Shown here piece after piece: positions 14,641 to 59,229 of a stretch of DNA of 64,000 nt. The DNA comes from Natranaerobius thermophilus JW/NM-WN-LF (GTDB taxonomy: Bacteria; Bacillota; Natranaerobiia; Natranaerobiales; Natranaerobiaceae), in NCBI RefSeq assembly GCF_000020005.1, contig NC_010718.1:2438001-2502000 (forward strand), given 5' to 3'. A program made the position numbers and the translations under genes. Each line of letters starts with the position of its first letter. The stretch's first letter is position 1. The notes beneath the pieces were generated by a model. The model ran no database searches. It saw nothing but the letters and a program-made list of their open reading frames with translations, and was not told where the DNA came from.

Positions 14641-14712
14641 ATGACTTTGCTATGTGTGGTTTAGCATGTTGTTTAGCATGTGGTTTAGTTGTGCGAATTA
14701 GTGCGAATTAGT
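14641..14712. repeat. Short tandem repeats upstream of the nucleoside hydrolase
   Basis: Imperfect tandem copies of GTTTAGCATGTG occur at about 14658-14688, followed directly by two copies of GTGCGAATTA (about 14692-14711). They continue without a gap into repeat R2. The stretch looks like replication slippage next to a hairpin. Confidence 0.55.
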
Positions 14713-14757
14713 TGATATACTCCCACAGCTAAAGCAGTGGCTTTCTGCTGCTGTTTA
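14712..14757 (+). repeat. Dispersed hairpin repeat R2, copy A
   Basis: TTGATATACTCCCACAG is followed by CTAAAGCAGTGG and CTTTCTGCTGCTGTTT. The hairpin is CCAC-A-GC-TAAA-GC-A-GTGG. The second copy, at 57971-58015, keeps the same outline with changed but still paired bases. It lies just past the stop codon of the Lon-like gene. Confidence 0.7.
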
Positions 14758-14769
14758 TCGTAATATAGT

Positions 14770-17223
14770 TTAGTGTGGTGGTTCTCTATTTTCATCCTGT
14801 TCCTTGTTTTGATCTTGACTAGTTTTAACTACTTGTTTTGATTTTAAATTCTTCCTGAACTCAATCAGTCTATTTTTTACACGCTTATAAACTGTATCTT
14901 CTTCCTCATTTTTATCAAGTAAGCCAGCAGTCATTCCCGATAACAATTCCATACCCTCATCAATGTGAGAAATAGAATAGATGTGGAAATCTCCTCTCTC
15001 ACAAGCTTCAATCACTTCTTCTGATAAGTTAAGATTATTTTCATTCTGTTTCGGAATGATAACACCTTGGGTACCCGTTAATCCTTTTATCTTACAGGTA
15101 GTGAAAAATCCTTCAATCTTTTCAGTGACACCACCTACTGGCTGGATTTCACCTTTTTGATTGACAGAGCCTGTTACGGCCAAATCCTGTCGTAAGGGAA
15201 TTTCACCGGCACTCGACAAGATAGCATATACCTCCGTACTGGAAGCACTATCCCCGTCTATGCCCCCATAAGTTTGTTCACAACACAGGCTAGCAGACAG
15301 GCCTAGCTTTTGATTATATGAAAACAGGCCATTTATCAGGCCGGATAAAATTAGCACTCCTTTGTCGTGAATTTTTCCGCTCAATTTAGCTTCCCGTTCA
15401 ATATTAATAATACCGCGTTCACCGGGGAAGACATTGGCTGTTATCCTGAAGGGTTTTCCAAACATTAAATCCCCTAGATCATAAACTGCCAGTCCGTTGA
15501 CCTGACCTGTCACTTCTCCGGCTGTATCGACCATGATATTTCCTTCATCAATTTGTTCTTGAATTTTTTCTTCAGGTCTGTTGACTCGATACTTTTTCTC
15601 TTGGATTGCTTTTATGACGTGTTCACGGGAAACATCGTCTTCTCCTTCTAGGGCAGCCCAGGTATCCGCTTCAGACATAATTTCTACTATTTCATTAAAC
15701 TTGGTTGATAGTTTCTTTTTATGCCCAGCTAAGCGAGAACTGTACTCTACCACACTGGCTACTCCCGAAGGGGTAAATGATTTAAACTCCTCATCCTGAG
15801 AATGGGAAGCGATAAATGATGCCATTTTCTCTACATTTTCCTGAGTCCTATTCATGGTTGAATCAAAATCTACTTTGATTTTGAATAACTTGGAAAACTC
15901 TTCATCCAGCTGGTATAAAAGCTGATACAATTTTTCATTTCCCACTATGATAACTTTTACATTAAGAGGAATATCTTCCGGTCTGAGAGAAGACATGGCA
16001 ATCATACCTATATGTTCACCCAAATTTTCCAATCTGAGCTGACCTGTATTCAATACTCGTTTTAATAATTCGTAGGTCATGGGAGTTTTAAGAACATCTT
16101 TGGCCTGGAGAATCAAATAACCCCCATTGGCCCTGTGAAAAGCTCCCGGTTTAATCATGTTAAAGTCCGTAACGGCAGTTCCCATTTTATTGACATATTC
16201 CATTTTTCCCAGGAGATTGTAATATGTGGGGTTAGTTTCTACAACTACTGGAGCCCCTTCTTGTTCGCAATTATCCACCAGAAGATTGACCTGATACCGC
16301 TTGGTTATATCCTCCTTTGATGCCTGGGGTTTTAAAAAAGATAGTCCTCCGTCATCTCCATCGTCATCTTTGGAAATGAAATGTTCTACATTTTTAACGA
16401 TATCCTCTTCTACCTCTTCCAGGTATTCTAAAACTTTGTCATTGGATTGATAGCGCTCTTTCATGGGATCCATTAAAGGAGATAGACTTTGATGAGCTGT
16501 TTCATCTTTTAATTTATCCAGTTCATCTTTTAAGTCACGATCTAAATCCTTTAGTTCGCGCATAAGATTCATTACATTTACGTGGAGTTTAGAAGAGTTC
16601 TCTTCAATTTCTCGTTTGGTTTCTGTATCTAATTCGTCAAACTCGTCCTGATTGAGTTCTTTACCATCAACAACAGGGACAGATACTATTCCTGAAGAAG
16701 TGTTTTTAAATCGAAATCCGTATTCTTCACCTTCTTCGTTCAATTTATCAACTAGTTCGCGGCGCTTGGCCTGATAGTCCCTAAAAATTTGTGCACGGCT
16801 TTCTTCATAAGTTTCAGTCTTAAAGGCCTTAGTTAAGGCGTCTCCTACCTCTTCTAGGAGATTTTCCATCCCTTCAACTAAATTGCAGCCTTCACCAGCA
16901 GGTAATTCAAGGGCTCGAGGTGATTCAGGTTCATTAAAGTTATATACATAGCACCAATCAGAAGGTGGATCAAACTTTTTGGCGTAGGTTTCGGTCATGG
17001 CCTTGGCATAACTGGTTTTTCCAGTACCGGTTGGGCCGGACATGTAAAGATTGTAGCCTTGACGGTTAATCTGTAGGCCAAATTCCATAGCCTTTACCGC
17101 CCGGTCTTGACCAATAATGCTTTTTAATGGTTCCAGTTCTTCTGTTGTGTTGAATTCAAACTGAGATTCATCACAATAAGCTTTCAACTGTTCCTTCTTT
17201 AACGGTGCAATTTGTTCTGACAT
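14770..17223 (-). CDS. Lon-like ATP-dependent protease (AAA + S16 domains)
   Basis: About 817 residues. The N-terminal AAA module has Walker A GPTGTGKTS (about 64-72) and a long coiled, charged insertion (about 120-300). The C-terminal domain is a Lon-type S16 protease. The catalytic Ser lies in GIDGDSASS and the Lys in VTEKIEGFF, 43 residues apart, exactly the classical Lon dyad spacing. This is the 'Lon-related, YcbZ-type' class, not housekeeping LonA, which is shorter and has a LAN domain. ATG 17223 is chosen over GTG 17229 because AAGGAG lies 8 nt before it rather than 2. Cytoplasmic quality control is expected; targets unknown. Confidence 0.92.
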   Translation of the reverse strand: MSEQIAPLKKEQLKAYCDESQFEFNTTEELEPLKSIIGQDRAVKAMEFGLQINRQGYNLYMSGPTGTGKTSYAKAMTETYAKKFDPPSDWCYVYNFNEPESPRALELPAGEGCNLVEGMENLLEEVGDALTKAFKTETYEESRAQIFRDYQAKRRELVDKLNEEGEEYGFRFKNTSSGIVSVPVVDGKELNQDEFDELDTETKREIEENSSKLHVNVMNLMRELKDLDRDLKDELDKLKDETAHQSLSPLMDPMKERYQSNDKVLEYLEEVEEDIVKNVEHFISKDDDGDDGGLSFLKPQASKEDITKRYQVNLLVDNCEQEGAPVVVETNPTYYNLLGKMEYVNKMGTAVTDFNMIKPGAFHRANGGYLILQAKDVLKTPMTYELLKRVLNTGQLRLENLGEHIGMIAMSSLRPEDIPLNVKVIIVGNEKLYQLLYQLDEEFSKLFKIKVDFDSTMNRTQENVEKMASFIASHSQDEEFKSFTPSGVASVVEYSSRLAGHKKKLSTKFNEIVEIMSEADTWAALEGEDDVSREHVIKAIQEKKYRVNRPEEKIQEQIDEGNIMVDTAGEVTGQVNGLAVYDLGDLMFGKPFRITANVFPGERGIINIEREAKLSGKIHDKGVLILSGLINGLFSYNQKLGLSASLCCEQTYGGIDGDSASSTEVYAILSSAGEIPLRQDLAVTGSVNQKGEIQPVGGVTEKIEGFFTTCKIKGLTGTQGVIIPKQNENNLNLSEEVIEACERGDFHIYSISHIDEGMELLSGMTAGLLDKNEEEDTVYKRVKNRLIEFRKNLKSKQVVKTSQDQNKEQDENREPPH

Positions 17224-17648
17224 GGTCACGACTCCTTTCTTATTTCTTCTTTACTTAATCACTTTTATTGGGCTCTTTTGGAAAATCAGAACACTTTTAC
17301 TTAACTGATTATAGCTACCTCTTGTATTCTATGATAATATTAACTTCGCTGTAATAGAAAGTAATTCCTGTTTTTATCAAAATCCTTTAACTTTCTCTGT
17401 TAAATTAACAGTATGGTGGGACAATTAGCGTACATAGATTATTATGTTATATTAATGTTGATATTACAATACAAAGGTGTTATTAAATTGCAGTATTGCT
17501 ATTAATTCTGGCATTAGTACTGTTAAAAGAAACTCAAACAATTTATGCTCAGTAAAAAAGGAATAATTGGCAGGAATTATTTTATCCTTCCCGAATATTG
17601 ATTGAGAGAAAATTATTTAGGGGAAAATTATTTAGGGAGGGGAAAGAT
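17224..17648. other. Intergenic region between divergent Lon-like and DUF4438 genes
   Basis: About 425 bp with no convincing gene. It should hold two divergent promoters. A perfect 15-bp tandem duplication of GAAAATTATTTAGGG (17608-17622 and 17623-17637) ends directly in the AGGGAGGGG ribosome site of the DUF4438 gene. The stretch at about 17570-17600 (GGCAGGAATTATTTTATCC, then CGAATATTG) is unusual, but I cannot assign it. Confidence 0.5.
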
Positions 17649-57886: not shown

Positions 57887-57947
57887 AAAAAGCCCCGGGC
57901 TAAGTCTTGATTGTACTCTGTCTAGACTACCAGCCGGGGCTTTTTTT
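57887..57947 (+). terminator. Bidirectional terminator
   Basis: AAAAAGCCCCGG and CCGGGGCTTTTTTT form a perfect 12-bp stem with a 34-nt loop and T-runs on both strands. It serves the gene ending at 57838 and possibly the DUF3048 gene from the other side. Confidence 0.9.
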
Positions 57948-57970: not shown

Positions 57971-58015
57971 TTGATATATTCCCACAGTCAAACAGTGGGC
58001 TTTCTGCTGCTGTTT
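57971..58015 (+). repeat. Dispersed hairpin repeat R2, copy B
   Basis: TTGATATATTCCCACAG, then TCAAACAGTGGG and CTTTCTGCTGCTGTTT. The hairpin is CCCAC-A-GT-CAA-AC-A-GTGGG. Compared with copy A the inner pairs GC/GC have become GT/AC, a compensatory change, while the flanking A-A mismatch is kept. Confidence 0.7.
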
Positions 58016-58035
58016 TGCATAATACACAGCCATTA

Positions 58036-59229
58036 CTAATAACTAATTTCTGTCCCGTAGGGTACAATATTTATCCAGGTTAAACCAGGACGTAATTCCA
58101 GAGGTTCTTCCGTTTCCGCGTGATAAAATTCGGTGGGTTCGTCGTGGTCATCCTTTTCCCAAGTCAAGGGCACAACTTTACCATCTGCTAGATATTTGGC
58201 CTCTCCTTCTCCTATCATTCCTAGCCTGCGTCTTCCTTGATCGTCTATTACTCTAGAATCCACATATTGGATTATCAGATCCTGAGCAGTAATTTGCTCT
58301 TCATCTGCCTGGTCAACATGGGGGTCTTCATTGATATACCGCTGATAATTTCGATCTTCTTCGTTATACTGATATTCCACAAGATTACCCCTACCGTAAT
58401 TGATTGTTATTTCTTCTGCAGATTCCACCTCTGCTTGACCCGCTTCAGTAGCTATAAAACTGGTTTTTATATCGGTATGGTCCTTTTCGTCATCCTTTTC
58501 TGTAACTGCTATAGCATGATTTATAAATTCTTTGGAAAACTCTTCGTTGTATGTAATAAAATTGTCCCGCTGGCCCTCAGGGCGGTATCCTCTAGATTCG
58601 GCCGCTTCCAATAAATTTTCTATATTTGTATAAGCATTAAAAGGAGCCCGGCGATCCTCTGAGCGCCAAAAATAACTCGCATCACCATATTCATTTAGAG
58701 TAGCAACATTTTTGTCCCTGATTTTGTTCATCACCGGCTGATAGCCCTGGATATGGGCGTACAAAGCATCATGTTCTAGAGCCAAAGTGACGAGATAGTA
58801 CCTAGCCGAGCGAATCGGGCCTATTTTTTCCGAGTGCTGATGTTTGAATACAGCCTGAAGCCTAGTTAGACTACCTTCTGCCGGAGCTTCATACATTATA
58901 CAAGCAGAATTTATCCCGGACTGGGGTCGCTCATTGGCAGTGTTTCCATAGGTTACTGTCACCGGTCGTGACAGCTCCTTTTCTTCGTCTTCCATTTCTC
59001 CTCCACAGTATTCACAACGAGGAACTTCTACAAGTTCCAACTCAGGGTCAGGCTCTTCCTTTTCCTTTTCTTCTTCTTTTTCCGGAATAGATGGTTCTGC
59101 AGCCTCATCGTCACTTAATATGGCATATAAACCGCCGGTAACCAGCAGGACTAAAATCAGCGACGTAATCGCCAGGGGGAGCTTTTTGAGTTTGAGTTTT
59201 TTCTTTTTCCTTTTGTAATTTCGTGCCAT
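58036..59229 (-). CDS. DUF3048 (YerB-like) membrane-anchored protein
   Basis: 397 residues. A basic N-terminus and one membrane helix (about 17-37) precede an acidic linker and a CEYCGG pair. The DUF3048 region begins near 95: NERPQSGINSACIMYEAPAEG (partly quoted), SEKIGPIRSARYYLVTLALE and GYQPVMNKIRDKNV. The second DUF3048 domain is C-terminal (LTWEKDDHDEPTEFY). The family is extracytoplasmic and of unknown function. GGAAGGTGG precedes ATG 59229. It lies 133 bp after ptb and may be the last gene of that operon. Confidence 0.9.
   Translation of the reverse strand: MARNYKRKKKKLKLKKLPLAITSLILVLLVTGGLYAILSDDEAAEPSIPEKEEEKEKEEPDPELELVEVPRCEYCGGEMEDEEKELSRPVTVTYGNTANERPQSGINSACIMYEAPAEGSLTRLQAVFKHQHSEKIGPIRSARYYLVTLALEHDALYAHIQGYQPVMNKIRDKNVATLNEYGDASYFWRSEDRRAPFNAYTNIENLLEAAESRGYRPEGQRDNFITYNEEFSKEFINHAIAVTEKDDEKDHTDIKTSFIATEAGQAEVESAEEITINYGRGNLVEYQYNEEDRNYQRYINEDPHVDQADEEQITAQDLIIQYVDSRVIDDQGRRRLGMIGEGEAKYLADGKVVPLTWEKDDHDEPTEFYHAETEEPLELRPGLTWINIVPYGTEISY

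Follow-up and report, generated by a model that had tools for sequence, protein, structure and literature searches.

What is the short hairpin repeat that occurs twice in this window (the whole 64,000-nucleotide stretch of the Natranaerobius thermophilus genome analysed here), and how did it reach its two sites? A sequence-only reading had described a pair of copies at 14712 and 57971, and we observed that both are real and start at those positions, though the unit is longer than had been drawn, at 48 nt in each case. Copy 1 reads TTGATATACTCCCACAGCTAAAGCAGTGGCTTTCTGCTGCTGTTT from 14712. A 29-mer pattern allowing up to three mismatches finds exactly these two copies in the window against none in 100 shuffles, and the pattern GGCTTTCTGCTGCTGTTT likewise finds exactly the two, against a mean of 0.05 in shuffles. 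An Rfam scan of the window returned a tRNA alone, with no match at either copy. The features at the two sites are as follows.

14712..14759, minus strand: solo single-hairpin element, copy 1, 48 nt, with left arm GATAAACAGCAGCAG, guide AAAG, hairpin and tail GAGTATATCAA; the best copy, at 81.4 bits
14722..14740, minus strand: hairpin of copy 1, CCAC-T-GC-TTTA-GC-T-GTGG, from the sequence reading and the covariation analyses
14760..14763, minus strand: target tetranucleotide TTAC (GTAA on the plus strand) in the left flank of copy 1, matching the TTAC of IS608 CL
14770..17229, minus strand: LonB-like protease gene, neighbour of copy 1 (context, outside the element)
57971..58018, minus strand: solo single-hairpin element, copy 2, 48 nt, with a 3-nt loop and GT/AC inner pairs; 65.2 bits
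58019..58022, minus strand: TTAT (ATAA on the plus strand), a mutated TTAC target in the left flank of copy 2, from the sequence reading
58036..59229, minus strand: DUF3048 gene, neighbour of copy 2 (context, outside the element)

Two element ends joined at one hairpin

The earlier reading had proposed looking for a partner transposase, and one was found in the same genome, in an element that carries the hairpin of the repeat at both of its ends.

C2:2673507-2675189, minus strand: full IS200/IS605 element (L044) with tnpA and tnpB

Its tnpA, at C2:2674700-2675056, encodes a Y1 HUH transposase of 133 aa (Y1_Tnp PF01797, 145 bits) that matches the ISHp608 TnpA 2a6m in phmmer at E 3.6e-32, the top match being another Y1 transposase, 2ec2; its tnpB encodes 380 aa with OrfB_IS605 and Cas12f1-like TNB domains. 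With a slash at the element border, the left end (LE) reads TTAC/GAAAAAACCAAACAGAAAG-CCCACTGCTTTAGCTGTGGG-ATGAATG and the right end (RE) CCAGAAT-CCCACTGCTTTAGCTGTGGG-AGTATGTCAA/, such that the two hairpins are identical direct repeats. All four signals described for IS608 (CL TTAC, GL AAAG, CR TCAA and GR GAAT; PMC5934647) are present, TTAC and AAAG at the left and GAAT and TCAA at the right, giving each end a hairpin, a guide and a cleavage site.

A typical solo copy reads TTAC/GATAAACAGCAGCAGAAAG-CCCACTGCTTTAGCTGTGGG-AGTATGTCAA, that is, a left-end arm, one copy of the shared hairpin and a right-end arm in 48–49 nt. The outer sequences of both ends (guide AAAG from LE, tail TCAA from RE) are thus joined through a single near-terminal palindrome identical to that of the full element. 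At this length the solo is too short to code, and it has neither terminal inverted repeats nor a target duplication, the latter being base-exact for one haloarchaeal member (a 49-nt difference after (C/T)TAC) rather than for the window copies. These are the features of a terminal-only PATE; with one hairpin only, the solo departs from the two-hairpin layout of IS200/IS605. A MITE with terminal inverted repeats was considered and set aside, the ends being asymmetric and the target unduplicated. The TTGAT at the edge of the repeat had been likened to an IS200/IS605 target motif; the family was well chosen, but TTGAT is the right-end tip (...TCAA) read on the other strand, and the target, TTAC, lies at the opposite edge.

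The repeat is almost certainly a fusion of IS200/IS605 ends, and very probably a 48–49-nt non-autonomous IS608-like derivative, a terminal-only fusion that probably spread as a fused unit. We regard as very improbable that it is instead a REP/REPIN-type repeat served by a domesticated TnpA_REP. Such repeats are also small palindromes processed by Y1 enzymes, and a second Y1 gene lies at C2:1089871; however, the GT[AG]G foot that is the REP hallmark is absent (the solo foot is AAAG), both ends of a tnpB-bearing IS in this genome match the repeat, and the copies are singlets with asymmetric arms rather than inverted doublets. REPIN singlets are taken to be immobile remnants (PMC3116915).

Copies, fold and setting within the genome

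What had been described as a pair is one family with 21 strong copies genome-wide. A 61-nt query gave 22 matches below E 1e-5 in the near-complete, three-contig assembly, of which 20 are solos and two are the ends of the full element. A covariance model (R1) built from 20 solo copies of this genome recovers 21 strong solos (53–81 bits), the left and right ends of the full element (48 and 40 bits) and weaker, partly decayed matches. Two decayed copies (L073, C2:1670771, and L074, C2:787552) comprise one with both arms and most of the hairpin gone and another with the left arm alone. By R1 there are 21 fusions against one LE and one RE and, with three tnpB and three Y1 matches in the whole genome, no graveyard of full copies is apparent. 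According to a simple ORF script, the 21 solos lie between predicted ORFs or overlap predicted ORF ends, a placement that sets aside small ORFs, which may be spurious.

TTAC is exact at 14 of the 21 solos and one base off at the other seven (about 3% expected by chance over the offsets tried), and the TCAA right tip is intact in 13. With seven mutated targets and fairly diverged copies, the activity may be old. The right arm is nearer the RE type in every strong solo. The left arm of every solo is closer to a shared solo arm (0–6 edits) than to the resident LE arm (5–9 edits); the shared arm is a consensus drawn from the same 21 copies, so that the point shown is one arm common to all. Three solos (L003, C2:2412411; L004, C2:2410849; and L251, in the metagenome-assembled genome G066 discussed below) have as guide not AAAG but AAAT, a blend of AAAG on the left and GAAT on the right. 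Just past the right end of the full element (L076, C2:2672406-2672507), a short run of CCCCGCTAAAG-like units sits inside a stretched repeat copy.

The inner pairs of the hairpin are as first read. Those of copy 1 are GC/GC and close a TAAA loop, those of copy 2 are GT/AC and close a CAA loop, and both copies retain the A.A mismatch, which is T.T on the opposite strand. The compensatory change read from them is confined to a single copy (copy 2). When 20 solos of this genome were aligned, there were no two-sided changes, and 18 of 133 cells were unpaired (86.5% paired), no better than shuffles; the non-compensatory changes named beforehand as the outcome that would count against selection on the fold are thus what these copies carry. 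Across lineages the picture differs. An alignment of 27 sequences, to which this genome contributes three and other genomes or viral contigs the remaining 24, has 14 two-sided cells of 214 and a stem covariation score of 0.212 against 0.076 shuffled (0 of 500 shuffles), where only the inner pairs are informative, since 23 of the 24 outside sequences were found by a pattern fixing the outer five pairs. The proposed selection on a folded single strand therefore stands for the family as a whole but not among the copies of this genome. The two window copies alone fold as DNA only slightly better than shuffles (z –1.7 and –1.8).

Both copies lie 3′ of minus-strand genes, as had been noted, with stops at 14770 and 58036. 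This position, together with a weak terminator-like stem predicted on the plus strand at both copies and the report by Delihas of IS605 stem loops kept at the 3′ ends of Borrelia genes (PMC2775950), would suit a host RNA feature, either a transcription terminator or a 3′ mRNA stabiliser downstream of genes. We nonetheless consider this improbable: on the gene strand the hairpin lacks a following T-run, and the weak terminator calls fall on the opposite strand; the stem decays without compensation within the genome; copy 2 adjoins an apparent proper terminator hairpin (57892-57947, by eye); and TTAC/TCAA borders and sites absent in relatives (below) are unexpected for a terminator. The terminator reading was rejected, its weak stem being on the wrong strand. 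The sequence at 57892-57947, where the YdjM-like and DUF3048 genes converge, is a long inverted repeat, rich in GC and carrying a T-run, which by eye reads as bidirectional terminator-like.

Replication offers a further view of the setting. With dnaA at the start of C2 and a GC skew flip between 1.43 and 1.59 Mb (readable in 19 of 20 sampled stretches, of which one departs from the trend), the element sense is the lagging-strand template in 17 of the 21 solos (p 0.007, gene orientation uncontrolled), a bias that fits the insertion on single-stranded lagging template described in the literature on the family. Sixteen of the solos fall within a 0.8-Mb stretch (C2:2243451-3043759) around the full element at 2.67 Mb, an interval chosen after the fact, and the right replichore holds 17 of the 21 (p 0.007).

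Dispersal of a fused unit or deletion of the core

In a relative from the same family but another genus (G001), the flanks of 10 of the 21 solo sites could be located, both window copies among them, and no R1 match of at least 20 bits lies beside those 10 flanks; one of these, a weaker, paralogous locus, has a 22-bit match at another place, and one contig breaks off some 150 nt beyond the gene. At three sites both neighbours are adjacent with no element between: copy 1 (LonB-like protease and nucleoside hydrolase), copy 2 (YdjM-like and DUF3048) and a flagellar locus (L067). These empty sites are not base-exact, the spacers having diverged. The relative's own elements are one solo and one right end behind a broken tnpB.

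A base-exact case comes from Haloarcula at 95% identity, where the filled site in G079 reads ...TATCGTTAC[49 nt]CGGTGACACTCC and the empty site in G165 reads ...TATCGCTAC-CGGTGACACTCC. It emerged from a comparison of 12 haloarchaeal solo sites with 292 genomes, in which junction-spanning relatives exist for one site; one filled site is shared (G067/G279). For the 11 solos of G066, no informative empty site was found among three genomes of its family. The empty sites fit insertion of either a full or a fused element alike.

The fusion recurs well beyond Natranaerobius. A general pattern (LE guide, stem and RE tail), run over genome contigs and viral records, found 25 genome stretches (haloarchaea, Clostridia, Erysipelotrichaceae, Olsenella, Methanomethylophilaceae, Borrarchaeum and others) and 15 viral records, several of which share flanks and so represent fewer independent loci. 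A narrower pattern tied to the left arm of this genome had no match in genome contigs. In 23 of the 40 fusion loci TTAC precedes the guide by 17 or 18 nt, and in six viral records by 12 nt. By tblastn with this TnpA and two TnpBs, tnpA or tnpB was found at none of the 40, a search in which a few loci extend only a little upstream and tnpB types of distant kinds might escape; for comparison, tnpB lies within 130 nt upstream at 26 of 43 true right-end loci. A second model (R2) gave 1–99 matches per genome, plain ends included, in the 23 genomes so found. The Syntrophomonadaceae MAG G066, of soda-lake type, carries 11 solos of 48–49 nt, all after TTAC, in two homogeneous, near-identical subfamilies with unrelated flanks. 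Within a 249-genome sample of the window's phylum at E 1e-8, matches came only from this genome and G001, apart from a single LE-type one in G030, and only here were there several copies; amplification thus appears rare in this phylum.

Several of these loci show variations of their own. Viral contigs L159, L162, L166, L168, L170 and L171 (several longer than 150 kb) have a shorter left arm (TTACGCTGAAC or similar), the guide GAAAG and the target 12 nt upstream. On some contigs a true right end is present as well, in part accompanied by tnpB; examples are 3300037512_000782, 3300028797_000098 and, with a 17-nt arm, 3300005613_000011. In L258 (G066:C79:2957-3011) the sequence in the place of the left arm (ACATTCATCCCAC) resembles the inner arm of a left end in reverse complement; the hairpin looks as though flipped, and TTACGTAA lies at the border.

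How did the solos multiply? We suggest that the LE arm, one hairpin and the RE tail would have been joined when all the sequence separating the identical end hairpins was lost, and that the product may then have been dispersed by TnpA acting in trans, supplied by the resident element or by a lost relative. TnpA would recognise the hairpin where the lagging-strand template is single-stranded, cut behind TTAC and behind TCAA, and insert the strand of about 49 nt behind another TTAC. Dispersal as a fused unit, rather than some 20 separate insertions and deletions, appears the probable course, favoured by a shared left arm unlike the surviving LE, the TTAC flanks and the lack of tnpA/tnpB debris; the evidence speaks strongly for a mobile fused unit but stops short of proof. 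Against it, IS608 chemistry needs a hairpin at each end (PMC7290912) and directs the right cut by a guide of its own, GAAT (PMC5934647); the solo has one hairpin and the left guide only, which would have to fill both roles.

Alternatively, each solo may be the immobile scar of its own full-length IS200/IS605 insertion, the core having been lost by slippage or recombination between the end hairpins, which in the resident element are indeed identical direct repeats. Exactly such core deletion, from 1500 bp to 52 bp, is documented in Haloquadratum (PMC3119063), where it yields the same product and requires no mobility of that product, and it would account for the wide recurrence of the fusion across lineages. 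It would, however, call for some 21 full-length insertions, each followed by a clean deletion, in a genome that holds a single full copy and hardly any tnpA/tnpB remnants; the left arm common to all solos differs from the surviving LE, and G066 carries two subfamilies of near-identical 48–49-nt copies. For these reasons we consider this origin unlikely, if far from negligible, beside dispersal of the fused unit.

If the fused unit did disperse, it may itself be transposable. We give an even chance to a reading in which a TnpA dimer acts on one hairpin, or on two solos in trans, and AAAG serves both TTAC and TCAA, such that the two-hairpin rule is not strict and the 48–49-nt unit multiplied on separate occasions in Natranaerobius-like Firmicutes, haloarchaea and large phages. 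Such single-hairpin units would, if this is correct, be among the smallest mobile elements known.

Relation to known systems

The resident element closely resembles IS608/ISHp608, with a TTAC target, AAAG and GAAT guides, a TCAA tip, the same hairpin at both ends and a TnpA homologous to 2a6m; the solo differs from these in lacking the genes, one hairpin and the GAAT guide. REPINs and REP sequences (PMC3116915) are, like the solos, miniature mobile DNA tied to Y1 transposases, but REPINs are inverted doublets with GTAG-type feet. The free-standing IS605 stem loops of Borrelia (PMC2775950) are also solitary hairpins without a transposase; there, left or right stem loops stand apart and are tied to lipoprotein genes, and the parts of that account drawn on here describe no left/right fusions. 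An ends-only IS605 derivative is known from another haloalkaliphilic bacterium, Halanaerobium hydrogeniformans, but this PATE-like element is 271 nt long, occurs as a single copy and retains its right end in full along with part of tnpB (PMC7290912, section 3.8). In the open-access literature, mostly at the level of abstracts, we found no paper on single-hairpin fusions amplified in bacteria.

The closest relatives are the 52-bp terminal-only PATEs of Haloquadratum walsbyi, HqIRS46 and ISHwa23, whose authors suspect mobility and which include six strain-specific 52-bp ISHwa23 copies; the 2011 paper left the mobility of such fused ends open (PMC3119063). Both kinds of unit consist of IS605-type ends fused via one near-terminal palindrome, in about 50 bp, with no gene and no target duplication. 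The terminal-only fusion itself was thus already known, and what is new here is a bacterial, amplified case. The solos differ in being bacterial, in reaching 21 copies and in sharing a left arm distinct from that of the surviving full element, and the present analysis goes further in identifying IS608-type signals and the TTAC target and in surveying the wide recurrence of the fusion. Taken together, 21 units with an arm absent from the surviving full element, recurrence in phages and across distant phyla, and a single exact empty site make possible a clean test of single-hairpin mobility: if the unit moves, peel-and-paste transposition needs an added single-hairpin mode, and if it is immobile, the hairpin-mediated core deletion documented in Haloquadratum is a general fate of IS200/IS605 elements.
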